Position numbers and translations under genes: made by a program. Below the pieces are notes generated by a model, which did not search any database, was not told the DNA's origin, and worked only from the letters and a program-made list of their open reading frames with translations. Shown one piece after another: positions 4,546 through 47,897 of a DNA stretch of 63,952 bases (position 1 is its first letter; each line of letters opens with the position of its first letter). Source of the stretch: an uncultured Gammaproteobacteria bacterium (GTDB lineage Bacteria; Pseudomonadota; Gammaproteobacteria; SZUA-229); the NCBI GenBank assembly GCA_913065105.1, contig CAJXZZ010000003.1, positions 1 to 63,952 of the forward strand, written 5' to 3'.

Positions 4546-6861
4546 TTATTTATTATAACCATATTCCATAACTTGCCCGAAACTGATACCCGCATCATTG
4601 ACCGGTATCAACTCAGGCAAACAAACTTCAAAACCATCAGCAGACAACAATGTTATCGCGCGTTCAGTTAAAACTCGGTTTTGAAATACTCCGCCGGAGA
4701 AACTGACGGTATTCACATCATGTTTTTCACGCAGCTGTTTTGCCTGCTGCAAGATAGAGTGCGCTAACGAATTATGAAACAGAGTAGCACGTGTTTTAAC
4801 ACTTAAAGTAGAATCTAACATAGCCTGTATCAATGACTTCCAATTTATTATCAGAAAGTTACCGTCATCTTCCAATTCAAGTTCCAGGTAATTATCAGCG
4901 TTTTGTTCAGCATCGTCACACAATGCCTCGAACTCCATAGGCCCCTGCCCTTCAAAACTTGCGACTGTACGCACGCCGGTAAGCGCTGCGGCAGCATCAA
5001 ATAACCGCCCCACTGATGTTGATTGCGGGGCATTGATTTTTTTCTGCCAGGCCTGTTTAATCATTGGATGTAACAACGGATCCTTTTCTGGAATTGCGTC
5101 ATAAGCCAGACCGACTTCCCAGCATAATGCTGCGGCGCTTCGCCAGGGTTGCCTGCCGGCTTTGTCACCGCCGGGCAGGTTGAATGCTCGCATACTGGCA
5201 ACACGTTGCCAGACACCCGGTTTACCCAAAAAAGTTTCACCGCCCCAGAGAGTGGCGTCTTCACCATAACCAACACCGTCCCAGGCAAACACGATGACGG
5301 GGATATCATTCGACACGGCGGTTTTACATTCGTAATACGCAGCCGAGGCATGTGCGTGGTGGTGGTAGACACTGTGCAGCGGAAGATCCTGTTTGTTTGC
5401 CCAGCGTGTTGTCGTGTAACCCGGGTGTGCATCACAGATTATTTTTTCAGCCTTAACGCCATAGAGTTTCTGTAAGTCACTAACTGTATTTTCGAACACT
5501 TGCAGACTGCGAACGGAATCCATCTCTCCGATATGCGGAGAAATAATGACGCGGTTTCCCCATGCCAGGGTGATGACATTTTTCATCTGCGCGCCCACCG
5601 CGAGTATCGGCTGTTCGAGTTCAAACGGCAGTGTCAGCTCTATCGGTGCAGAACCTCGACCGGTGCGTATCGGTCGGCTTTTGCCAGCGATGGTTCGGTA
5701 TACTGGATCATCCGCCGGCCGTTCGATCGGTCGATTATGATGCAGACAGGCATCAGCCACATGCCCCAGACGTTTTTCAACTTGCTGATTATCGATCAAT
5801 ACCGGTTCACCACTGATATTTGCTGACGTGGCAACTAGTGGGCCAGCAAAATCATTCAGCAATAAATGATGCAGCGGACTGTACGGCAACATCATGCCGA
5901 CCTCGTTTAATCCCGGCGCAAGCTGATCAGATAATTTTGTCTCTGTGTTTTTTTTCACCAGCAGAATCGGCCTTGCTGGCTGCAGCAAAAACGCTTTATC
6001 TTTTTCGCTCAATGTTACCGAGAGCTCTGCAAATTTAAACGGATTTTCTAGCGGCGCTGGGAACATGACTGCCAGTGGTTTATCTGGTCTGGGTTTGTTT
6101 TTTCGTAGGCGGCCAACCGCTTCGTTGTTAGCAGCATCACACATCAGATGATAACCACCAATACCTTTTACCGCGACTACCTTGCCCTGTTTTAATGCCT
6201 CTACAGTTTTTGTGAGAGCTTCATTATTATCATTAACTTTTGTCTTTCCATCATGAAACGTCAATGAAGGTCCACACTCTGCACAGGCGACTGGCTCAGC
6301 GTGAAAACGACGATTCGATGGATCTTCATATTCGGCAAGACATAGCGGACATAACTCAAAATCGGCCATCGTTGTATTAGGCCGGTCATAGGGCAACCGT
6401 CGAATCAAGGTATAACGCGGCCCGCACTGCGTGCAGTTAATAAACGGATAATGGTAACGGCGATCTAAGGGATCGTTTAATTCGGACAGGCAATCATCAC
6501 ACAGGAAAAGATCAGCCGGTACACTGGCATGCGCCCCACCGATGTCCTGACTTTCTAAAATACTAAAATTATCATATTCAGCAACATCGATTCGTATATC
6601 AGACTCGAGTTGAGGATTTGCTAACGGCGGTTTTTTAGTAAATAGTTCGCTTAAGAAATTCTCCAGGTTGTGAGACTGACCCTGAACCTGTATCTCGACA
6701 ACACCGACACAGTTTCTTACCCAGCCATTTAACTTATGCTCGATAGCAAGACGATAAATAAAAGGCCGAAAACCGACACCCTGAACCTGCCCGGATAAAG
6801 TTATCTGTCTAGCAGATACTTCGGGTCTTACTTTGATTTTACTGTTTAAGTATATAGCCAT
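4546..6861 (-). CDS. hypF: Carbamoyltransferase HypF
   Basis: HypF turns carbamoyl phosphate into carbamoyl-adenylate and loads HypE. Domains in order: acylphosphatase (motif GQVQGVGFRPF at 24-34), two zinc fingers with CxxC pairs at Cys121/124 with 143/146 and Cys171/174 with 193/196, a YrdC-like nucleotide domain (about 205-390, with SANISGEP), and a Kae1-like carbamoyltransferase domain with the metal-binding HHHAHA motif near residue 495 and SFSGGVFQNRVL near the C-terminus. The 771-residue length is usual. There is an 83-bp gap to hypD that carries a short 10-bp tandem repeat; 20 bp separate it from hypE. Confidence 0.97.
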   Translation of the reverse strand: MAIYLNSKIKVRPEVSARQITLSGQVQGVGFRPFIYRLAIEHKLNGWVRNCVGVVEIQVQGQSHNLENFLSELFTKKPPLANPQLESDIRIDVAEYDNFSILESQDIGGAHASVPADLFLCDDCLSELNDPLDRRYHYPFINCTQCGPRYTLIRRLPYDRPNTTMADFELCPLCLAEYEDPSNRRFHAEPVACAECGPSLTFHDGKTKVNDNNEALTKTVEALKQGKVVAVKGIGGYHLMCDAANNEAVGRLRKNKPRPDKPLAVMFPAPLENPFKFAELSVTLSEKDKAFLLQPARPILLVKKNTETKLSDQLAPGLNEVGMMLPYSPLHHLLLNDFAGPLVATSANISGEPVLIDNQQVEKRLGHVADACLHHNRPIERPADDPVYRTIAGKSRPIRTGRGSAPIELTLPFELEQPILAVGAQMKNVITLAWGNRVIISPHIGEMDSVRSLQVFENTVSDLQKLYGVKAEKIICDAHPGYTTTRWANKQDLPLHSVYHHHAHASAAYYECKTAVSNDIPVIVFAWDGVGYGEDATLWGGETFLGKPGVWQRVASMRAFNLPGGDKAGRQPWRSAAALCWEVGLAYDAIPEKDPLLHPMIKQAWQKKINAPQSTSVGRLFDAAAALTGVRTVASFEGQGPMEFEALCDDAEQNADNYLELELEDDGNFLIINWKSLIQAMLDSTLSVKTRATLFHNSLAHSILQQAKQLREKHDVNTVSFSGGVFQNRVLTERAITLLSADGFEVCLPELIPVNDAGISFGQVMEYGYNK

Positions 6862-38105: not shown

Positions 38106-38704
38106 TTGCGGGTCTCGCCCCGCTGGCGAATGTATCTTTAGCTTTTACGACTTTTATGAATTTGATCCGTGTGTTTCGCCTTTTACGGGCGAGTCACTTT
38201 TCTTTCAGTAGCAAAAGAAAAGTAACCAAAAGAATGCCATCCCGCTCCGTTTGCCCCGAGAAAAGCGCTCGGGGTGCCTGACTGCCCAGGTGTTGCCTAC
38301 GAGCCCGCCTTGACGCGCTGTCCGTGCGCGCAAGGCTAAATTCGCCTTCCCTGGCGAATTTACTCTACCAACACCTGAGCATTCAGCAAACGAAAGGGGA
38401 ATCCAAAAACTAACAAACACAAACAAGAGTCGTCGCTGAAGTACACATTATAAATTAACGCTGTTTTATTCTTTTTCTCGTCCTTCCACTTTTAAGCAAG
38501 CCATTGAGGCGGTGCGGGTGTCATGGGTTTTCTGTGAAAACTGTCTGAGCGTCTTCTGCGAGTTTTTTCACAGCATGATAGCTGTGCTGACTCAGTGGGA
38601 ACCCCTGTGTCTTTTACAGGGGCGTAGCTGTAGTGGCGGCCTTTTCTGGTTACTCTTTTGGGCTGTAGCAAAAGAGTGGCTCGCCAGCGGGGCGAGACCC
38701 GCAA
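38106..38704. mobile_element. Intergenic repeat element with exact 24-bp inverted ends
   Basis: Positions 38106-38129 and 38681-38704 are perfect reverse complements (core CGGGTCTCGCCCCGCTGG). Just inside, GGCGAGTCACTTTTCTTT near 38189 and its diverged complement near 38650-38685 form a second inverted pair (both contain AGTAACC or GGTTACT next to a GTAGCAAAAGA core). The interior has no real gene; two halves face each other. The right half from about 38493 recurs, diverged, at 63370-63670. It behaves like a non-autonomous, MITE-like or REP-like element; the class is not identified. Confidence 0.65.
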
Positions 38705-38757: not shown

Positions 38758-39399
38758 TCAGTCCTTCTGTAATAACGTCATCGCATTACCGCTATGTTCA
38801 ACGTCGAGCTTCCCTAGAAATGTCATACCCAGTAGAATTGGCCCGGGGTGAGTCCCATCTATCACAAAAGCTTCAACGTTCTTCTGCGTGATTCCCCCTA
38901 CCGAAACAGACTTCAGGCGGATACGATATGCTTTTGCAAGCCCCGAAGCAGTACTGACGCTGGCAGGCGTGCCAATTTTATCGTAGAGAATACCTAATTT
39001 TTTTGCCTGATCAACATTCATAGCGATAGCACTGGCACCTGTATCAACTAAAAAACGTACCGAACGACCGTTGATGTTGCCAAAGGTCATATACATTCCA
39101 CCAGAATTTTTATAGATGGTTTCTTTTTTAGATGTACGAGCAGTAAATGAAGTACTAACAGTATTGCCAAGATTGTATTGTTTTTGCTGACCATTTACCT
39201 CTAGAATCGCACCACGACTATTAGCTGAAATCAGCTTCACACCTTCTGGGCTGGTTTTACCAACGGCCAGAATATGTCGCGTACCATCTATCAACAAAAC
39301 TGCTTTATTAGAGAACAGGCCCTGCACTTCTATTTTTTCAACAGCATGCACCGCTACAGAAACACATAAAATCAGCAATGTTAAAATAAGCCGACTCAT
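38758..39399 (-). CDS. Secreted retropepsin-like aspartic protease (clan AA)
   Basis: The ATG at 39399 overlaps the pgpA stop (ATGA) and gives a 213-residue protein with a signal peptide (cleavage near VAVHA), an N-terminal domain of about 75 residues (VQGLFSNKAVLLIDG) and a C-terminal retropepsin-like domain with the catalytic FLVDTGASAIAMN motif and the ILLGMTFLGKLDVEH loop. It is the single-domain TIGR02281-type protease that would act as a homodimer in the periplasm. Substrate unknown. It is the last gene of the leftward block starting at glyA or ribD. Confidence 0.88.
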   Translation of the reverse strand: MSRLILTLLILCVSVAVHAVEKIEVQGLFSNKAVLLIDGTRHILAVGKTSPEGVKLISANSRGAILEVNGQQKQYNLGNTVSTSFTARTSKKETIYKNSGGMYMTFGNINGRSVRFLVDTGASAIAMNVDQAKKLGILYDKIGTPASVSTASGLAKAYRIRLKSVSVGGITQKNVEAFVIDGTHPGPILLGMTFLGKLDVEHSGNAMTLLQKD

Positions 39400-39890
39400 A
39401 CCATCGGATACCAGTGCTGCAACAACATCAAACACGATAAACTGATGATGCCGGCTATCACGTCATCAAACATGATGCCAAAACCACCATGCACGTTTTT
39501 ATCAAACCAGGAAATCGGCCATGGTTTAACTGCGTCAAAAAATCGAAACAAGGCGAAACCTATAAGCATCAAAATCCAGCTTTCAGGCACCATAAACATG
39601 GTAATCAAAAACCCGGCAACTTCATCATAAACAATTCCCGAATGATCATGTACCTGTAATTTTTTTGTGGCATAACCACAGATCCATGAACCGGTAAGCA
39701 GCACAAATAAAGTAACCAGGATATACACCAGCAATGTTTGTTGCTGCAGTAAATATACCAGCGGTACCGCCATCAACGTACCCGCAGTACCGGGTGCTTT
39801 CGGCGATAGACCACTACCAAAACCCATCGCTACAAAAACAACAGGATCCTTTAATTCCGTTAAATAAATTTTTCTGTTTTTATCAGACAT
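39396..39890 (-). CDS. pgpA: Phosphatidylglycerophosphatase A
   Basis: A 164-residue inner-membrane enzyme removing phosphate from phosphatidylglycerophosphate. FGSGLSPKAPGTAGTL at the N-terminus, HDHSGIVYDEVAGF in the middle and KPWPISWFDKNVHGGFGIMFDDVIAG near the C-terminus are the PgpA catalytic segments. About three hydrophobic helices. It follows thiL by 13 bp, the standard gammaproteobacterial order. Confidence 0.94.
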   Translation of the reverse strand: MSDKNRKIYLTELKDPVVFVAMGFGSGLSPKAPGTAGTLMAVPLVYLLQQQTLLVYILVTLFVLLTGSWICGYATKKLQVHDHSGIVYDEVAGFLITMFMVPESWILMLIGFALFRFFDAVKPWPISWFDKNVHGGFGIMFDDVIAGIISLSCLMLLQHWYPMV

Positions 39891-39903
39891 TCAATATATG
39901 TAA

Positions 39904-40887
39904 TTAAAAATGTTTAAATCCTGAATTTGTAAAAGCAAATGGTTTATTATTATCATCGATAAAAACCAGCTCATCTGAATCAGTCACTTCACCAATACAG
40001 CTGATCTGCAACTGATGCTTTTCAGCCAACGCTAAAACTGCAGATTCGTTCTCATTGCTAACGGTAAAACACAGTTCATAATCATCACCGCTTGTTAATA
40101 GCATAGACCAGTCCATTTTATTATTATGATACTGCTTAAAATAGTGTTTAGCTGAGGATGAAACTGGTATCGCAGTCAGATCAATGCAGGCACCACAGTG
40201 ACTCGCACTGAGCACATGCCCAAGATCTGCGACTAAACCATCAGATATATCGATCGCACATTTTGAATATTGAGTCAGTTCTTCAGCAAACCTTACTCTG
40301 GCTTCAGGCCGGTTGAGTCTTTTGATACAAGGCTTTAGAACTTCATCATCAAGTTCATCTGAAATTGCCTGCAGGCCTATCGCTGCATCGCCCAACCAAC
40401 CCGTTACAAATACCTTATCGTCAACTACAGCTGCATCACGACGTAATATTTTATCTTTATCACACAACCCCATCGCCTGAACAGTAATAGACAAAACGCC
40501 TTTTGTGGTATCACCACCGATCAAGCTAACATGCAAGCTTGATAGAACTGTAGAGAGCTGACCTGAGAACAGCTGTAACCATGTTTCATTAATATCAGGC
40601 AGTGAGATAGCCAAAGTTACCCATGCAGGTTTGGCTCCCATCGCAGCTAAATCACTTAGATTAACCATCAATGCCTTGTACGCAATATCTTCTGCAGAAG
40701 TGTTTTCTGGAAAATGGACGCCCGATATGAGTGTGTCAGTGGTGATCAATAATTGTTTATTATCAGGGACAGAAACAATTGCGCAGTCGTCGCCGCCCGC
40801 GAGGATTACATCATCACGCGAATCAGGGAAAGTGAAATATTTTTTGATGACATCAAATTCAGAGTTATTCATAAATAAAGATGTCAC
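39904..40887 (-). CDS. thiL: Thiamine-monophosphate kinase
   Basis: A 327-residue PurM-fold kinase making thiamine pyrophosphate. GGDDCAIV, TTDTLISGVHF, GGDTTKG and CAIDISDGLVADLGH are ThiL motifs. It lies 26 bp after nusB. Normal length. Confidence 0.95.
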   Translation of the reverse strand: MTSLFMNNSEFDVIKKYFTFPDSRDDVILAGGDDCAIVSVPDNKQLLITTDTLISGVHFPENTSAEDIAYKALMVNLSDLAAMGAKPAWVTLAISLPDINETWLQLFSGQLSTVLSSLHVSLIGGDTTKGVLSITVQAMGLCDKDKILRRDAAVVDDKVFVTGWLGDAAIGLQAISDELDDEVLKPCIKRLNRPEARVRFAEELTQYSKCAIDISDGLVADLGHVLSASHCGACIDLTAIPVSSSAKHYFKQYHNNKMDWSMLLTSGDDYELCFTVSNENESAVLALAEKHQLQISCIGEVTDSDELVFIDDNNKPFAFTNSGFKHF

Positions 40888-40913
40888 ACAGGTTTATGTG
40901 TTAGAAAGAAAAG

Positions 40914-41378
40914 TTAAGACTTTACGGATTTAACTTCGATGTGTCGAACTTCTTGAGCCACTTTATCTAAAACAGCGTTGACGAACCCATGGCTATTTTC
41001 GGCACAGTATTCTTTTGCAATATTGACGGCTTCATTTAACACCACTCGATATGGCACATCAAAACGATGAATGAACTCATATGTTGCTATACGCATAATA
41101 GATCGCTCTACTGGGTCAACAGATTCAACACTGCGAGTCATGTTTTTTTCAAGGAAGGGATCAAGTTCACTGATAGATGATGCAACACCACTGACCAGTT
41201 CAGAAAAATATTCTGCATCTATCACAGAAAAATTATTGTCTTCAAAAAATTGTTGTTTGATACCAGTAATACTATCACCAGTCATCTGCCATTGATAAAT
41301 AGCCTGCATAGCAAAACGTCGAGATTTACCTCTCGCTTTGGCCATACTTTTTTTTGATGTTTGTTTTTCTTCTGACAT
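40914..41378 (-). CDS. nusB: Transcription antitermination factor NusB
   Basis: A 154-residue helical RNA-binding protein. ARGKSRRFAMQAIYQWQMTG at the N-terminus and YRVVLNEAVNIAKEYC ... FVNAVLDK at the C-terminus are NusB signatures. It binds boxA with S10. It is downstream of ribH by 32 bp. Confidence 0.96.
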   Translation of the reverse strand: MSEEKQTSKKSMAKARGKSRRFAMQAIYQWQMTGDSITGIKQQFFEDNNFSVIDAEYFSELVSGVASSISELDPFLEKNMTRSVESVDPVERSIMRIATYEFIHRFDVPYRVVLNEAVNIAKEYCAENSHGFVNAVLDKVAQEVRHIEVKSVKS

Positions 41379-41410
41379 TAATAATCTACTACTGTGATCA
41401 GACAGTTTAT

Positions 41411-41884
41411 TTAATCCAACTGTTTAAAAATATTAACCATTTCAATAGCAGCGGAAGCGGCTTCCGAACCTTTATTACCTGCTTTAGTGCCTGCGCGCTC
41501 TATCGTTTGCTCAATATTTTCTGTGGTTAAAATACCGTTGATTACCGGCAGGCCATGGTCTAATGCAATAGCAGATAAACCTTTAGCTGACTCGTTTGCA
41601 ACAATATCAAAATGCGGCGTTGAACCACGAATTACAGCACCGAGCGCGATAATTGCGTTATATTTTCCCGACTGTGCCAGATTTTGTACAGTCACAGGCA
41701 TTTCAAATGCACCGGGCACGCGCACAACGGTGATATCAGATGCCGCAACACCATGACGCAGTAGAGTATCCATTGCCCCAGCAAGTAAACTTTCAACGAT
41801 AAAACCATTAAACCGTGCAACCACAATCGCAAACCGCCCTTCTGTATATTGCAGACTACCTTCAACTATATTACTTTCACTCAT
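41411..41884 (-). CDS. ribH: 6,7-dimethyl-8-ribityllumazine synthase
   Basis: A 157-residue enzyme condensing the ribityl pyrimidine with dihydroxybutanone phosphate. Signatures: [43 protein letters not shown] (with catalytic His) and [28 protein letters not shown]. Follows ribBX. Normal. Confidence 0.97.
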
Positions 41885-41928
41885 TATTTATCTCGCCATG
41901 TTCTAAAAATACTTTTACTAAAATGAAA

Positions 41929-43041
41929 TCAATCATCACCCGATACATAATCAACAACTTCCAGGCCGAAACCAGCCAGGCCATGAATTACTTTTGGCGC
42001 TGTCATCAGGCGCATTTTTCTAACACCTAAATCCACAAGTATCTGCGCACCAACACCATCAGTTCTTATATCGGTCGGTTGTTTTGTTTTAACAGCATCA
42101 GGTGCCGTACCTGTTTGCTCAGCCATCCATTGTAATATACCAGTATTCTGATCAACCATGCTTAATACTACAACAACACCTTGTTTCGCTTCAGCCACCT
42201 GTTTTAACGCATCATCTAATGGCCATGACTTTGAGTCTAACGAACCAAAAACATCCGTTAATGCATTTTTCATATGCACACGTACCAGCACAGGTTCTGC
42301 CGAATCTATCTCACCATCTGCACTAACCAGGGCATAATGTATTAACGCATCTAAATTATTTCGATATGCAGATAATTTGAAATTACCATATGTAGACGGG
42401 AAATCACATTCGGCAATACGTTCGACCGTTTTTTCATTTTTAAGCCGATAACTGATCAGGTCTTCAATCGTACCAATCTTTAAATTATGTTCTTCAGCGA
42501 AAGTTTCAAGATCCGGACGACGTGCCATCGTGCCGTCTTCATTAAGAATCTCAACAATCATTGAACTAGGCTCTAAACCAGCAAGACTTGCCAGATCACA
42601 ACCTGCTTCAGTATGCCCTGCACGTGTTAGCACGCCGCCAGGTTGCGCCATTAAAGGAAAAATATGACCCGGCTGTACAATATCTTTTGGTGAGGCATCA
42701 GCCTTCACTGCTGCCTGGATAGTCACTGCACGATCGCCTGCAGAGATACCTGTAGTTACACCTTCAGCCGCTTCTATAGACATGGTGAAATTAGTGCTTT
42801 CAATAAGATCAGTACCATGGACCATTAGCGGTAAATTCAATTGTTTACAACGCTGTTCGGTTAACGTTATACAGATCAAACCGCGACCATACCGCGCCAT
42901 GAAATTTACATCATCCGCAGTCACTGCACTCGACGCCATCAAAAGGTCGCCTTCATTTTCTCGATCTTCGTCATCCATGATAACGACCATCTTGCCCTGA
43001 CGGATATCTTCGATAATTTCTTCTGTTGTATTCAGCTTCAT
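41929..43041 (-). CDS. ribB: RibBX: DHBP synthase fused to a degenerate GTP cyclohydrolase II domain
   Basis: A 370-residue protein. The N-terminal 200 residues are 3,4-dihydroxy-2-butanone-4-phosphate synthase, with DDEDRENEGDL (23-33) and GHTEAGCDLASLAGL intact. The C-terminal domain resembles GTP cyclohydrolase II (VRVHMKNALTDVFGS, TDIRTDGVGAQILVDLGVRKMRLMT) but has none of the three zinc cysteines or the RCDC motif, so it cannot be an active cyclohydrolase. This is the RibBX arrangement known in some gammaproteobacteria. An active RibA must be encoded outside the window. Confidence 0.93.
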   Translation of the reverse strand: MKLNTTEEIIEDIRQGKMVVIMDDEDRENEGDLLMASSAVTADDVNFMARYGRGLICITLTEQRCKQLNLPLMVHGTDLIESTNFTMSIEAAEGVTTGISAGDRAVTIQAAVKADASPKDIVQPGHIFPLMAQPGGVLTRAGHTEAGCDLASLAGLEPSSMIVEILNEDGTMARRPDLETFAEEHNLKIGTIEDLISYRLKNEKTVERIAECDFPSTYGNFKLSAYRNNLDALIHYALVSADGEIDSAEPVLVRVHMKNALTDVFGSLDSKSWPLDDALKQVAEAKQGVVVVLSMVDQNTGILQWMAEQTGTAPDAVKTKQPTDIRTDGVGAQILVDLGVRKMRLMTAPKVIHGLAGFGLEVVDYVSGDD

Positions 43042-43074
43042 AATAATTAATTTAGTTAGTACGTGATATAAATG

Positions 43075-43728
43075 TTAGCCAGCAAAACCGGCTTTTGCTA
43101 AAGCTTCGAGTGTGATTCCGTTTCCTGTCCCATCATCCTTTTTGGTCAACAGTCTTTCCAGATAACGCGCGATCAAATCTACTTCGAGATTAACCTTGGT
43201 TCCCGGTTTGTAATTTTTAATAATAGTCTGCTGCTGCGTATGAGGAACAATATTTATTTCAAAATCTGTATCGGTAATTTTATTTACTGTCAGGCTGGTA
43301 CCATCTATACAGATAGACCCCTTCATCGCTACGTAATGTTTAAGTTCTTCCGGCGCTTTAATAATTAACTGGACCGAGCGGGATTCTTCTTTTATTGAAA
43401 GCACCTCACCTAAACCATCAACATGACCACTCACTAGATGGCCGCCTAAACGTGTCGTTGGTAACAGCGCTTTCTCCAGGTTAACCTCACTGCCGATATC
43501 AAGATCTTTTAAACTTGTTAAGCTGATCGTTTCATTTGAAACATCTGCCGCAAAATATTTCTTATCAAATTCAATCGCAGTTAAACATACACCGTTCACC
43601 GCAATACTGTCACCAAGTTGCACATCAGTCATATCCAGAGTGCCGACTTCAACGTGCAGGCGCATGTCGCCACCAACAGGCTCAATCTTTTTAATGTGGC
43701 CAACGGCCTCAATGATTCCGGTAAACAT
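43075..43728 (-). CDS. ribE: Riboflavin synthase, alpha subunit
   Basis: A 217-residue two-repeat enzyme. The start at 43728 gives the invariant MFTGIIEAVGHI; the longer open frame overlaps the upstream gene. The two lumazine-binding repeats show DSIAVNGVCLTA and GSICIDGTSLTV. It follows the Ntn hydrolase gene with essentially no gap. Confidence 0.95.
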   Translation of the reverse strand: MFTGIIEAVGHIKKIEPVGGDMRLHVEVGTLDMTDVQLGDSIAVNGVCLTAIEFDKKYFAADVSNETISLTSLKDLDIGSEVNLEKALLPTTRLGGHLVSGHVDGLGEVLSIKEESRSVQLIIKAPEELKHYVAMKGSICIDGTSLTVNKITDTDFEINIVPHTQQQTIIKNYKPGTKVNLEVDLIARYLERLLTKKDDGTGNGITLEALAKAGFAG

Positions 43729-43729
43729 A

Positions 43730-44329
43730 TTAATTTGCCGGTGACTTCTGCAGATCAATCATATAACTTGATAAGGGCATTGACGATGCATTATTAAATT
43801 CAGCGCCAGCTGCAACACCCGCATGAGCAATCTCTTCTGCCGATGCCGCACTATCATAAACAGCAAACATGGCGCCTAATGCATATTCTGCACCAGAACC
43901 AATCGCCCAGAATTTTTTATATTCTGTTACTTCACGTAGCGAATGCACACCAAAGATGCCAAAGGGATTTGCAATCAACGCATCGATCTGTGTTGATTCG
44001 TAAGGATCATCATCCTCGTCTTTGGCATTTAAAAAATATTTCTCTTTCAATAGTGGATGCAAGGCAAGGAAGCTTTCGAAGATAGCCAGGCGTGATGAAA
44101 AGTCCATTTCAATTTTTTTATCAATCACCTTCTTACTGGCAAAGACACTTTCCAGCACCAGTTGATGCGCAGCACTACCGACAATACCTAGATAATTTTC
44201 ATCATGGCGTAAAATTTTATCGTGCGCAGAGTCATAAACAGAACTGAGTCTCAGATCACCGAAACTGGTGAGACTATCTGCCGCGATACAAATCTTACCG
44301 TCTTTTTTAGCAACTACAACTGTAGACAT
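43730..44329 (-). CDS. Proteasome/HslV-like Ntn hydrolase inside the riboflavin operon
   Basis: A 199-residue protein with the peptidase T1 (HslV/20S beta) fold signature: MSTVVVAKKDGKICIAADSLTSFGD, with the acidic residue of AADS and the lysine of AHDKI at the places of HslV Asp17 and Lys33, and EYALGAMFAVYDSAASAEEIAHAGVAAGAEF near the C-terminus. After Met removal residue 1 would be Ser, whereas HslV and most relatives I recall have Thr. It belongs to a proteobacterial family often mislabelled as a transporter. No HslU-type ATPase is beside it. It sits between ribD (45 bp) and ribE (1 bp). Confidence 0.82.
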   Translation of the reverse strand: MSTVVVAKKDGKICIAADSLTSFGDLRLSSVYDSAHDKILRHDENYLGIVGSAAHQLVLESVFASKKVIDKKIEMDFSSRLAIFESFLALHPLLKEKYFLNAKDEDDDPYESTQIDALIANPFGIFGVHSLREVTEYKKFWAIGSGAEYALGAMFAVYDSAASAEEIAHAGVAAGAEFNNASSMPLSSYMIDLQKSPAN

Positions 44330-44373
44330 TACTAACCTCGTGTTTGAACTAGTCTATAACTTTACAAGCAATT

Positions 44374-45480
44374 TTATTTGCAACGTTCTGGTTGCGCAGT
44401 AATCCGAATATCATTACCGATCGATCTCACATCTTTTATCTTCAATGAAACCCTGTCTTTCATCTGTTCTAATTCGGGTAGATGAAACAGCCCTTTTGCA
44501 TTGTCGCCCATGATATGCGGCGCCATATAAATAATAATTTCATCCACAAGGTCATTTTTTAAAAGAGCACCGCATAGAACCGAACCGGCTTCTACGTGAA
44601 GTAGATTAATTTCTTTTTTTGCCAGATCTTTCATCAAAAACTGAAGATCTATTCTGCCATCCTGCGCATCACAAGTTTCGATTATAAATGGATAGCTACT
44701 CTTGTTATCCGCATTCACTGTGGTATATACGATACATTCCCCGCCTATAGAGGATATTTTCGCACCCGATGGCATTTTAAACTGACTATCAAGTACTATG
44801 CGTTTCGGTTGTCTGACTTCGTCATCAGAGCCGCTAATAAATCGATCAGCAGTCAGGCGGACATTCATCGACGGATTATCTGCCAGCACGGTATCAATGC
44901 CGGTCAATATAGCCGAACTTTCTGCCCGTAAACGCTGCACATCATCACGCGATGCTTCACCGCTGATCCATTGGCTCTCGCCTGAAGCCATGGCTGTACG
45001 ACCATCGAGACTCATGGCCAGTTTTATCCGTACAAATGGACGCCCTGTCTCCATGCGTTTGATAAAACCCAGGTTTAATTCACGCGCCTGTGCTTCCAGT
45101 AATCCATCTTCAGTTTCTATACCCGCATCATGTAACTTTTTTAATCCGCTGCCGGCAACCAGCGGATTAGGATCTTTCATTGCAACAATAACTTTTTTTA
45201 CACCGGCATCAATTAGAGCATCAGCACACGGTGGTGTTTTTCCGGTGTGACTGCACGGTTCCAGAGTAACAAAAACCGTCGCATCTTTTGCTTTAGCGCC
45301 TGCCTGTTTTAACGCATTAATTTCCGCATGCGCTTCACCTGCACGTTGATGCCAACCCTCGCCTACAATCTTTTCATTTTTTACGATGACACAGCCAACA
45401 GACGGATTAGGGTCCGTCGTATACAGACCTTTCCTGGCCAGCCTTATTGCATGCTGCATATATTCAACGCTACTAATCAT
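44374..45480 (-). CDS. ribD: Bifunctional riboflavin deaminase-reductase RibD
   Basis: A 368-residue enzyme. The deaminase domain has the zinc HAEINALKQAG and PCSHTGKTPPC motifs; the reductase domain has RPFVRIKLAMSLDGRTAM and NLLHVEAGSVLCGALL. It acts on the pyrimidine intermediate. It begins 63 bp after nrdR on the minus strand. Normal. Confidence 0.96.
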   Translation of the reverse strand: MISSVEYMQHAIRLARKGLYTTDPNPSVGCVIVKNEKIVGEGWHQRAGEAHAEINALKQAGAKAKDATVFVTLEPCSHTGKTPPCADALIDAGVKKVIVAMKDPNPLVAGSGLKKLHDAGIETEDGLLEAQARELNLGFIKRMETGRPFVRIKLAMSLDGRTAMASGESQWISGEASRDDVQRLRAESSAILTGIDTVLADNPSMNVRLTADRFISGSDDEVRQPKRIVLDSQFKMPSGAKISSIGGECIVYTTVNADNKSSYPFIIETCDAQDGRIDLQFLMKDLAKKEINLLHVEAGSVLCGALLKNDLVDEIIIYMAPHIMGDNAKGLFHLPELEQMKDRVSLKIKDVRSIGNDIRITAQPERCK

Positions 45481-45542
45481 GGTGACTGATCATATTTTCA
45501 ATACAGGACTCTGACTAGAAACTTCAGTAGACGTTTATATAA

Positions 45543-46019
45543 TTATGGCTTCTTTTTTTTTGTCGCTTTCGATTTTTCAATTTTTTCTATGGCATCACGA
45601 AATGCATTTACATCGGTAAAATCGAGATACACAGAGGCAAAACGTATGTAAGCCACATGATCTAAAGCCAACAGTTGCTCCATAACAAGATTACCAATTT
45701 TCGCGGAACTTACTTCTCGTTCTCCGGCTGCCAGTAATTGATGTGTAATACTATTGATGGCGGCATCTATCTGCTCTGTACTTACTGGTCTTTTCTCCAG
45801 CGCTCGCATAACCCCTGCACATAGTTTTTCTTCCTTAAATGGCATGCGGCTACCGTCCTGCTTGACAATGCGCGGCATATTTAACTCAGCACTCTCATAC
45901 GTAGTGAAGCGTTCATTACATGAAACACATTCACGTCGACGACGTACCTGAGCGCCATCATTGGCTAATCGCGAATCGATAACACGCGTATCAGGCGCCG
46001 AACAAAATGGACAGTACAT
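45543..46019 (-). CDS. nrdR: Transcriptional repressor NrdR
   Basis: A 158-residue regulator of ribonucleotide reductase genes with an N-terminal zinc ribbon (MYCPFC ... RRRECVSC) and an ATP-cone ([18 protein letters not shown]). The C-terminus has a lysine-rich tail KKKKP. It lies between glyA and ribD, a common arrangement. Confidence 0.96.
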
Positions 46020-46056
46020 GTCTTCTCTTTATTAAATTTCGTGGTCAGTTCTTGTA

Positions 46057-47340
46057 CTAGACTTCATACACAGGTAATCGTGCACAGATCGCGGTGACTT
46101 TTTCACGAACGCTATCAACGATGGCTGTATCTGCGACATCATCATTTATGCTATCGATAATGTCACACATCCAGGTCGCCAGATCGGTTGAATCCTGCTC
46201 GCTAAATCCACGCGTCGTCATCGCTGGTGTGCCAACACGTATACCGCTGGTAACAAACGGTGATTGCGGATCATTTGGCACTGCATTTTTATTGACTGTG
46301 ATATGCGCCTTACCTAATTCTGCTTCAACAACCTTACCGGTTAGACTCTTCGGCGTAAGATCCCACAGGAACAGATGGTTATCGGTACCGCCAGATACCA
46401 CCTTGTAACCACGATCAAGCACGACTTTTGCCATCGCCTGGGCGTTAACGATAACCTGCTTCTGATAGACAATAAACCCTGGCTCCTGCGCTTCTTTAAA
46501 TGCAACCGCTTTAGCCGCAATAACATGCATCAGAGGACCACCCTGTGTACCGGGGAAAATTGCAGAGTTTAATTTTTTTGCAAGATCTTCATTTTTAAGT
46601 AAAGAATCATCACCCGCAAGAATAATTCCACCACGTGGGCCACGTAAGGTTTTATGCGTAGTCGAAGTAACAACATCAGCCACACCCACAGGATTAGGAT
46701 ATAAACCTGCGGCGACCAAACCAGCAACATGGGCCATATCAACAAAAAGATAAGCCCCACAGGAATCAGCAATCGCACGGAAACGATCCCAGTCCATCAC
46801 CCGTGAATAAGCAGAGAAACCAGCAACAATCATCTTCGGTTTATGTTCATCGGCTAAACGCTGAACTTCATCATAATCAACAACACCAGTTTCATTATTC
46901 AGGCCATACTGAACGGCGTTATAAATTTTCCCTGAAAAACTAACGTGTGAACCGTGAGTAAGGTGACCACCGTCAGCCAGCGACATACCTAATACCGTAT
47001 CACCGGGTTTACAGAGGGCCATATAAACAGCCGCATTAGCCTGCGAACCAGAATGTGGCTGAACATTGGCATAACCAGCACCAAACAGGTTTTTTACACG
47101 ATCAATAGCAAGCTGCTCAGCCACATCGACGTTTTCACAGCCACCATAATAACGACGTGCCGGGTAACCTTCTGCGTATTTATTGGTTAATACCGAACCT
47201 TGCGCCTGCATCACACGCTGACTGGCATAATTCTCAGAGGCAATTAACTCAATATGCTCTTCCTGGCGCTTAACCTCATGCTGCATCGCAGCCCATAAAG
47301 CCTCGTCATAACCTTCAATCGTTGTATCTTTGGGAAACAT
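46057..47340 (-). CDS. glyA: Serine hydroxymethyltransferase
   Basis: A 427-residue PLP enzyme interconverting serine and glycine with tetrahydrofolate. Signatures: [35 protein letters not shown], and [14 protein letters not shown] with the PLP lysine. It begins with ATG and GGAGTT upstream. Normal length for gammaproteobacteria. Confidence 0.97.
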
Positions 47341-47690
47341 TGAAACTCCTACATTACTGCAACACCAGAAAGCTGGTGCCTGTTATCAAGAAAATGGCGC
47401 AATCTTATCAAAAAAGCACTATAACGTATATCAATAACTTACTGATATCACTAAAGAATGGAGTGGCTGGCTGAAAACAGAGACAATGGATATTAAACCT
47501 ACCCAGTCAAAACAAACTTTCATTACATCGCCTCGATTAAAATCAGAAAATACTTTAAAAACCCTATTATCTATTTCATAATCAATGATTTATAAAAAAC
47601 GCTCTCACGATTCAGGAACAACCGGAAATTACACGTGAATAGACATAAACACACTGGCGTGAATCCTAAACGTGTACATAAAATTTAAAA
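47341..47690. other. Region upstream of glyA
   Basis: 350 bp, AT-rich. The glyA leader contains a tight hairpin, CACCAG-AAAG-CTGGTG at 47363-47378, about 25 bp before the ATG. The rest holds no ORF or repeat that I can support; it should include promoters for glyA and for the small gene at 47691. Confidence 0.45.
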
Positions 47691-47897
47691 ATGGATGATA
47701 GCTCGCTACTTATTTGGGGAATGGTGTTCGGGTCAATCGGACTAGGTTTCTTTTTATATGGAAAAAAACAGAAGGCGATAGTGCCCTTAATTACTGGTAT
47801 CGCTCTATTTATCTTTCCTTATTTTATGTCAAACATATATGTACTTATAATTTCGGGCGTTTCCATAATGGCGGTGCCTTATTTCGTGAGAATATAA
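47691..47897 (+). CDS. Small membrane protein (68 residues)
   Basis: A 68-residue protein with two or three hydrophobic helices and a central YGKKQKAIVPLITGIALFIFPYF motif. Similar small proteins with FGSIGLGFFLYGKKQK are widespread in gammaproteobacteria, sometimes labelled amino-acid transport protein. Function unknown. An alternative frame at 47714 is a shadow. Confidence 0.7.
   Translation: MDDSSLLIWGMVFGSIGLGFFLYGKKQKAIVPLITGIALFIFPYFMSNIYVLIISGVSIMAVPYFVRI

Follow-up and report, generated by a model that had tools for sequence, protein, structure and literature searches.

A proteasome homologue with a serine at its predicted N terminus is encoded inside the riboflavin operon of an uncultured gammaproteobacterium, between ribD and ribE, and the same position recurs among its relatives across 13 GTDB families. 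The gene lies in a stretch of 63,952 nucleotides that was analysed as a whole and is called the window here. Overall, the protein is probably a Ser1-type BPH (Betaproteobacteria proteasome homologue), a self-compartmentalizing peptidase that needs no ATP and is produced together with the enzymes of flavin synthesis. That the functional tie between BPH and flavins is real seems to us plausible but somewhat short of probable, and we hold a flavin substrate and a merely good genomic address to be nearly equal explanations of the position.

The assignment to BPH is almost certain. Searching solved structures with phmmer recovered the two BPH structures 5ovu (E 7.7e-45, 156 bits) and 5ovs (E 1.4e-44, 155 bits) over residues 3-195, and the next, unrelated match had an E of 0.09, with none lower. 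The Pfam family Proteasome (PF00227) matched at 24.8 bits, just over its cut-off of 22.4. An AlphaFold2 monomer model built from 21 homologues (pLDDT 77.3, pTM 0.79; the best of five, with the other four at 45.6 to 48.2) was closest in the structure comparison (VIA) to Td-BPH (5ovs; Z 21.2, rmsd 2.6, 175 residues), followed by the Td-BPH epoxomicin complex (Z 20.8), Cm-BPH (19.6) and then HslV (about 16). These results agree with the first-pass annotation, which had recognized a proteasome/HslV-type Ntn hydrolase. Two related identities were rejected. As an HslV, the protein reached 26.8 bits against an NCBIfam cut-off of 157.75; the true HslV of the genome scores 279.1 and lies beside hslU. 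Anbu is frequently found in an operon with transglutaminase, ATP-grasp and Alpha-E genes, according to the part of PMC5666114 available to us, whereas rib genes adjoin bph.

The active site is strongly conserved. The protein starts MST, with serine directly after the initiator methionine and no propeptide (no extra residues), and Ser2 of the model is superposed on the first chain residue of each of the three BPH structures. Its catalytic set comprises Ser2 (residue 1), Asp18 (equivalent to Asp17), Lys38 (Lys33 of the proteasome and Lys37 of Td-BPH), Gly51 and Ser145, the counterpart of Ser139 of Td-BPH, which forms a hydrogen bond to residue 1 (PMC5777263, seen in part). Ser2, Thr3, Asp18, Lys38 and Gly51 were invariant in all 59 aligned clade members (58 plus the window protein), so both the predicted N-terminal serine and the equivalents of Asp17 and Lys33, to which the first-pass annotation had drawn attention, withstood the comparison. 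Ser145 is more variable, with serine in 48 of the 59 sequences and alanine in 11. Residues 99-113, which include a DEDDD stretch, carry a net charge of -5 in 50 of the 59 and fall in the same range in the Thr1 group; the loop corresponds to the acidic pore loop of solved BPHs (PMC5777263, seen in part).

Much of the likely working of the protein can be read from these relatives. Fuchs et al. (PMC5777263, cited throughout from the portion of its text available) reported the BPH structures PDB 5ovs, 5ovt and 5ovu and described Thr1 BPHs as tetradecamers from which the methionine is removed, with epoxomicin and MG132 bound at residue 1 and an acidic pore loop. The window protein shares with the solved BPHs its sequence, fold, active-site set and pore loop, as well as the lack of a propeptide and of an adjacent ATPase; it differs in that the solved proteins have Thr1 and occur with argG or PDC genes (PMC5777263), whereas those of the window clade have Ser1 and lie between ribD and ribE. 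We propose that bph is expressed as part of the rib operon and translated after ribD and before ribE; the start of ribE at its stop is observed, and translational coupling would follow from it. Methionine aminopeptidase would then remove the methionine and expose Ser1, as is known for a Thr1 BPH (PMC5777263). The Ser1 hydroxyl would attack the peptide carbonyl with the help of Lys37, Asp17 and the amino group of Ser1 itself, and Gly50 would provide the oxyanion hole; the residues themselves are observed, and the chemistry is modelled on Td-BPH with epoxomicin. By homology to the two solved BPHs, the subunits are expected to stack as two heptameric rings into a barrel that encloses the active sites and works without an AAA+ unfoldase, and the acidic pore loop would filter entry, probably admitting unfolded or short polypeptides. 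Such a barrel would be dosed in fixed proportion with the riboflavin enzymes and would most likely clear peptides or proteins without ATP; some of its substrates, at least, would presumably come from flavin metabolism or its vicinity.

That the window BPH is an active peptidase is a good deal more likely than that it is inert, a judgement drawn from geometry and inhibitor binding; it is weakened by the fact that no BPH has been seen to act as a peptidase. In the available portion of PMC5777263, two proteins with Thr1 were inert on peptides and casein, and pull-downs yielded no partner. The absence of an ATPase partner, noted by the first-pass annotation, holds for the adjoining genes: the neighbours of bph are glyA, nrdR, rib genes, nusB and thiL, with no AAA+ or ATPase gene among them, and hslV and hslU form a separate neighbouring pair on another contig (C9; bph is on C3). 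The protein could instead be an HslV paralogue that borrows the HslU of the cell, given that hslU occurs in 47 of the 54 genomes of the window's order and in 22 of the 22 of good quality. We regard this as extremely improbable, since the cell's own HslV adjoins HslU, the HslV score of BPH is far under the cut-off, and BPHs are reported neither to conserve the residues that contact HslU nor to bring HslU down in pull-downs (PMC5777263, seen in part). HslV (ClpQ) has the fold and family in common with the window BPH; it differs in that its gene adjoins hslU, in working with HslU and in its short pore loop. CodW, the HslV of Bacillus subtilis, likewise has serine in place of threonine at the nucleophile; it differs in working with the ATPase CodX (PMC5777263, seen in part).

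The features of the locus are collected in the table below. The bph frame is open on the minus strand, a strand that the first-pass annotation had not given, with 199 codons and a stop (600 bp) and a translation beginning MSTVVVAKKDGK; the plus strand across the same interval contains 13 stops.

Table. Features of the bph locus in the window, with the evidence for each assignment.
Feature	Position	Strand	Evidence
bph, Ser1 BPH (HslV-derived proteasome homologue)	43730..44329	-	199 aa; phmmer, PF00227, structural match (VIA), residue conservation
Acidic pore loop of BPH, about residues 100-111 (LNAKDEDDDPYE)	43997..44032	-	alignment
ribE, riboflavin synthase	43075..43728	-	TIGR00187 219.9 bits, above cut-off
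ribD, bifunctional deaminase/reductase	44374..45480	-	TIGR00326 419.4 bits, above cut-off
ribBA of RibBX type (DHBP synthase fused to a GTP cyclohydrolase II-like domain that lacks the three zinc cysteines)	41929..43041	-	
ribH, lumazine synthase	41411..41884	-	TIGR00114 181.3 bits
nrdR, conserved neighbour upstream of ribD	45543..46019	-	Pfam PF22811, PF03477
glyA, conserved upstream neighbour	46057..47340	-	name by sight of the protein and conserved place
nusB-like, conserved downstream neighbour	40914..41378	-	name from the look of the protein, without family search; place conserved

The gene order is glyA, nrdR, ribD, bph, ribE, ribBA, ribH, nusB and thiL, with thiL, nusB and glyA named from the look of their proteins. 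A gap of 44 bp separates ribD from bph, and a GAGG motif resembling a ribosome-binding site lies 6 nt upstream of the bph ATG. The ATG of ribE at 43728 follows the bph stop codon (43732-43730) after a single base (43729), as the first-pass annotation had noted, and yields a RibE of 217 aa (MFTGII...); the TTG at 43758 in the list of open reading frames is merely the longest reading, and we took the ATG as the start. No FMN riboswitch or other Rfam family matched within the rib operon at gathering scores, and a promoter scan gave no signal over chance level. Terminator-like elements in 39500-47800 numbered 17, against 6.3 in shuffled sequences (sd 2.8), on both strands; none separated bph from ribD or from ribE.

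We surveyed the distribution of the family with a profile of 21 rows at a threshold of E 1e-20, in samples that were all Proteobacteria by design. In the window's order (one GTDB family), 46 of 54 genomes had a match, as did 45 of 369 genomes drawn from its class and 12 of 398 drawn from its phylum, the last all within the window's own class; together, 96 distinct genomes had a match. Eighty regions were then examined, comprising every class match from other orders (41), every additional match from the phylum draw (9) and 30 of the 46 own-order matches, with rib context judged by blastp with the proteins of the window. The gene occupied the rib operon in 57 regions and lay elsewhere in 23. The conserved position extends over 13 GTDB families (f1, f10, f45, f49, f52, f63, f87, f94, f127, f128, f132, f154 and f155), and serine follows the start in all 56 intact rib-operon BPHs. 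Similarly, an earlier scan, whose genomes partly overlap with the main survey, found 28 of 29 loci in rib context, and in two small follow-up samples bph was present in every genome searched, five from family f10 and four from the order to which f52 belongs. The remaining rib-operon gene (L126, genome G237, family f45; about 5800-6410) is disrupted in place by two frameshifts and lacks a start codon, with ATA at the position of a relative's ATG; its fragments are 86-92% identical to a relative, and the break may reflect recent decay or long-read errors.

The spacing to ribE is tight throughout the clade. Between the bph stop and ribE, the gap was at most 10 bp in 44 of 56 loci (median 3.5 bp; a 1-base overlap in 16), and the median gap from ribD to bph was 19 (55 loci). 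Divergence of bph is about as rapid as that of ribE: across the 49 loci that contain all five genes, pairwise protein distances averaged 0.386 for BPH, 0.404 for RibE, 0.442 for RibD, 0.347 for NrdR and 0.344 for RibBA, and pN/pS against 10 close relatives averaged 0.119 for BPH and 0.122 for RibE, a rough ratio with synonymous sites near saturation. BPH distances correlated with those of RibE at r 0.84 and with all other genes at 0.82 to 0.84, like the correlations among the rib and nrdR genes themselves (0.78 to 0.87); with 11 family representatives, the BPH correlations were only moderate (r 0.46 to 0.64). These moderate values, the alanine at the Ser145 position, the frameshifted L126 gene and the departure from the operon in family f145, described below, all count against the proposal of a peptidase produced together with the flavin enzymes.

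Outside the rib operon, BPH genes occurred at PDC loci (6), beside Hsp33 (1) and GDPD (3), in the order nrdR-BPH-ndk-rlmN (2) and in single contexts with YajQ, a MiaB-like gene, RF-1/LMW phosphatase, SLT and PEMT; one further locus (L155) had no informative neighbour. Residue 1 was threonine in all eight of the PDC, Hsp33 and L155 proteins and mixed in the other non-rib BPHs. In a tree rooted on HslV, from which L126 was excluded as from all our trees, the rib BPHs and the two nrdR-ndk BPHs formed one group of 58 rows with support 99/96. Removing residues 1-2 and HslV left the rib clade as one group, with support down to 72/95, and a quick tree built in this manner needed one more change. On the main tree, the rib label requires two changes, which we read as one gain into the rib operon and one departure. 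Ser1 and the rib position thus go together within the rib clade, and Ser1 arose or persisted outside it too (GDPD and PEMT loci).

This history is what would be expected if bph were simply housed there, having entered the rib operon once in an ancestor of several gammaproteobacterial families and been kept for steady expression. Its job would then be the one suggested for other BPHs, a general clearance of proteins without an unfoldase or a part in the stress response, and it would have no flavin link. We treat this as a serious contender, although not as the probable one. The single gain and departure speak for it, as do the unrelated neighbours of other-clade BPHs (PDC E2/E3, Hsp33, GDPD, NDK, YajQ, MiaB-like and others), the argG, PDC and hsp33 contexts given in the available portion of PMC5777263, the move of the f145 BPH away from rib genes and the many rib operons without BPH. 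It accounts less readily for a place held across 13 GTDB families at protein distances of up to 0.57, for a spacing to ribE near zero and for the lack of any demonstrable loss in the window's order. The neighbourhood survey supported the first-pass annotation in part: bph adjoins rib genes in the window's clade, and in the wider BPH family the Thr1 members lie elsewhere (PMC5777263, seen in part).

At the six PDC loci (L149, L151, L152, L153, L156 and L157; all with a Thr1 BPH), lpd directly follows BPH in every case, and its product is the lipoyl-bearing E3, a flavoprotein; aceF directly precedes BPH in L149 and L151, the two loci where that gene was scanned. This arrangement, a pattern noticed post hoc, and the seat of the Ser1 clade in the rib operon would suit a regulatory or quality-control protease specific for rib enzymes or apo-flavoproteins. 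We consider such a protease unlikely, as the flavin theme is absent from the other contexts and pull-downs with Cm-BPH yielded no partners, PDC subunits included, in the available portion of PMC5777263. A common flavin thread over the rib, lpd and FAD oxidase contexts (the last beside L121 and L136, see below) is likewise a post hoc pattern, and many contexts do not fit it. Still less likely is that the Ser1 clade is a barrel dedicated to flavins, in which the difference between threonine and serine and the relocation to the rib operon signal a new task; its substrate could then be a riboflavin enzyme, an apo-flavoprotein or, most boldly, a pathway intermediate that is an amide or formamide. 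If this were true, vitamin synthesis would have a proteasome relative of its own, and a target would be known for a BPH for the first time.

The pattern of absences bears on the same question. Eight of the 54 own-order genomes lack BPH; seven of these also lack a RibE match and one has ribE cut at a contig end. We therefore rejected them as losses, the gaps covering the whole rib locus, and no loss is shown in the own order. Among 30 chosen class and phylum genomes without BPH, RibE was found in 25, at 26 places, with ribD directly upstream at 19. The gap was about 300 bp or less at 18 of the 26, too short for bph, and rib operons without BPH are thus common. Moreover, the nrdR-ribD-ribE backbone is itself very stable, so a single insertion could persist without functional meaning. 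In families f145 and f136, four of five genomes had a RibE match, all four with ribD next to ribE and BPH elsewhere. At two loci, L135 and L145, a BPH of the rib clade starts with TTG and has nrdR, ndk and rlmN as neighbours; the rib operon of these genomes lacks BPH and encodes a RibBA with the zinc cysteines. In f145, the neighbours of the rib-clade BPH are nrdR and ndk, and the rib operon is intact at another place without BPH. The common rib operons without BPH, and the BPHs of f145 and f136 that lie away from an intact rib operon, speak against the link to flavin synthesis suggested by the first-pass annotation.

The RibBA protein of the window offers a further point of contact with the pathway. 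Its DHBP synthase half scores 234.5 bits with TIGR00506, above cut-off, and its GTP cyclohydrolase II-like half 53.7 bits with TIGR00505, far under the cut-off of 205.85. The three zinc cysteines are absent from RibBA in all 54 rib-BPH operons and in 19 of 22 other rib operons; they are present in f145, which suggests that this family acquired another rib operon and that its BPH was left beside nrdR. A specific link between BPH and RibBX was rejected, RibBX being usual without BPH too. No GTP cyclohydrolase II over the family cut-off was found in the window's own genome, the one genome searched (99.7% complete, fragmented), and together with the missing zinc cysteines this leaves the first riboflavin step there without an assigned enzyme. 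Other Ntn-fold enzymes act on small amides, and this likeness, the vacant step and the place in the rib operon could indicate a small-molecule amidohydrolase or cyclohydrolase acting on a pathway intermediate. We judge this highly improbable: RibBX without zinc cysteines is also the rule without BPH, the search for RibA covered one fragmented genome only, rib operons often lack BPH, and the BPH geometry accommodates a peptide inhibitor (PMC5777263, seen in part).

The first paper on BPH is reportedly that of Valas and Bourne in 2008. The first-pass annotation was aware of no described function; the family is in print, its crystal structures and its binding of inhibitors included, and so is the Ser1 variant, which was described for BPHs outside Betaproteobacteria (PMC5777263, seen in part). 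The available text of the same paper names argG, PDC and hsp33 as the prevailing contexts and has BPH descend from HslV. A later clustering, as far as PMC8665760 was available, shows Group I homologues (AAH, CPH, PPH and others) radiating from BPH and reports no telling genomic contexts for the new proteasome-like homologues; the window protein matches BPH proper instead. We found no report of a BPH, HslV or proteasome homologue in a riboflavin or ribD locus in the literature searched (titles and abstract openings), and the word riboflavin is absent from the main text of PMC5777263, whose supplement contains the Ser1 sequences (Fig. S3). The family, the fold and the Ser1 variant are therefore known, and the rib-operon clade is undescribed as far as our literature search reaches. 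BPH structures have been known since 2017, yet the reporting paper, in its available portion, gives no activity, substrate or partner (PMC5777263). A serine nucleophile combined with one fixed, tight operon position provides a concrete hypothesis that is testable in a culturable relative, and a first place to look for the job of the protein. If the gene is only a lodger in the operon, the case cautions against inferring what a gene does from its place in an operon.

Several minor observations accompany these results. Five distant proteins in the survey, at about 100 bits (L110, L121, L125, L136 and L140), are probably not BPH proper and may belong to another proteasome-like homologue group of PMC8665760 (seen in part). 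In L121 and L136, the distant protein overlaps the start of an ORF for an FAD-linked oxidase, and in L125 and L140 it lies beside a putative aminopeptidase (PF10023). A search for BPH relatives in viral contigs returned 35 pattern matches, none of which was confirmed. Downstream of the rib-nusB-thiL run, a gene on the minus strand at 38758-39435 encodes a clan AA retropepsin-like aspartic protease (TIGR02281, 106.7 bits) and overlaps the end of pgpA. The sole Rfam match in the window is a TwoAYGGAY RNA (RF01731) at 38263-38401 on the minus strand, with 52.4 bits against a gathering score of 43.
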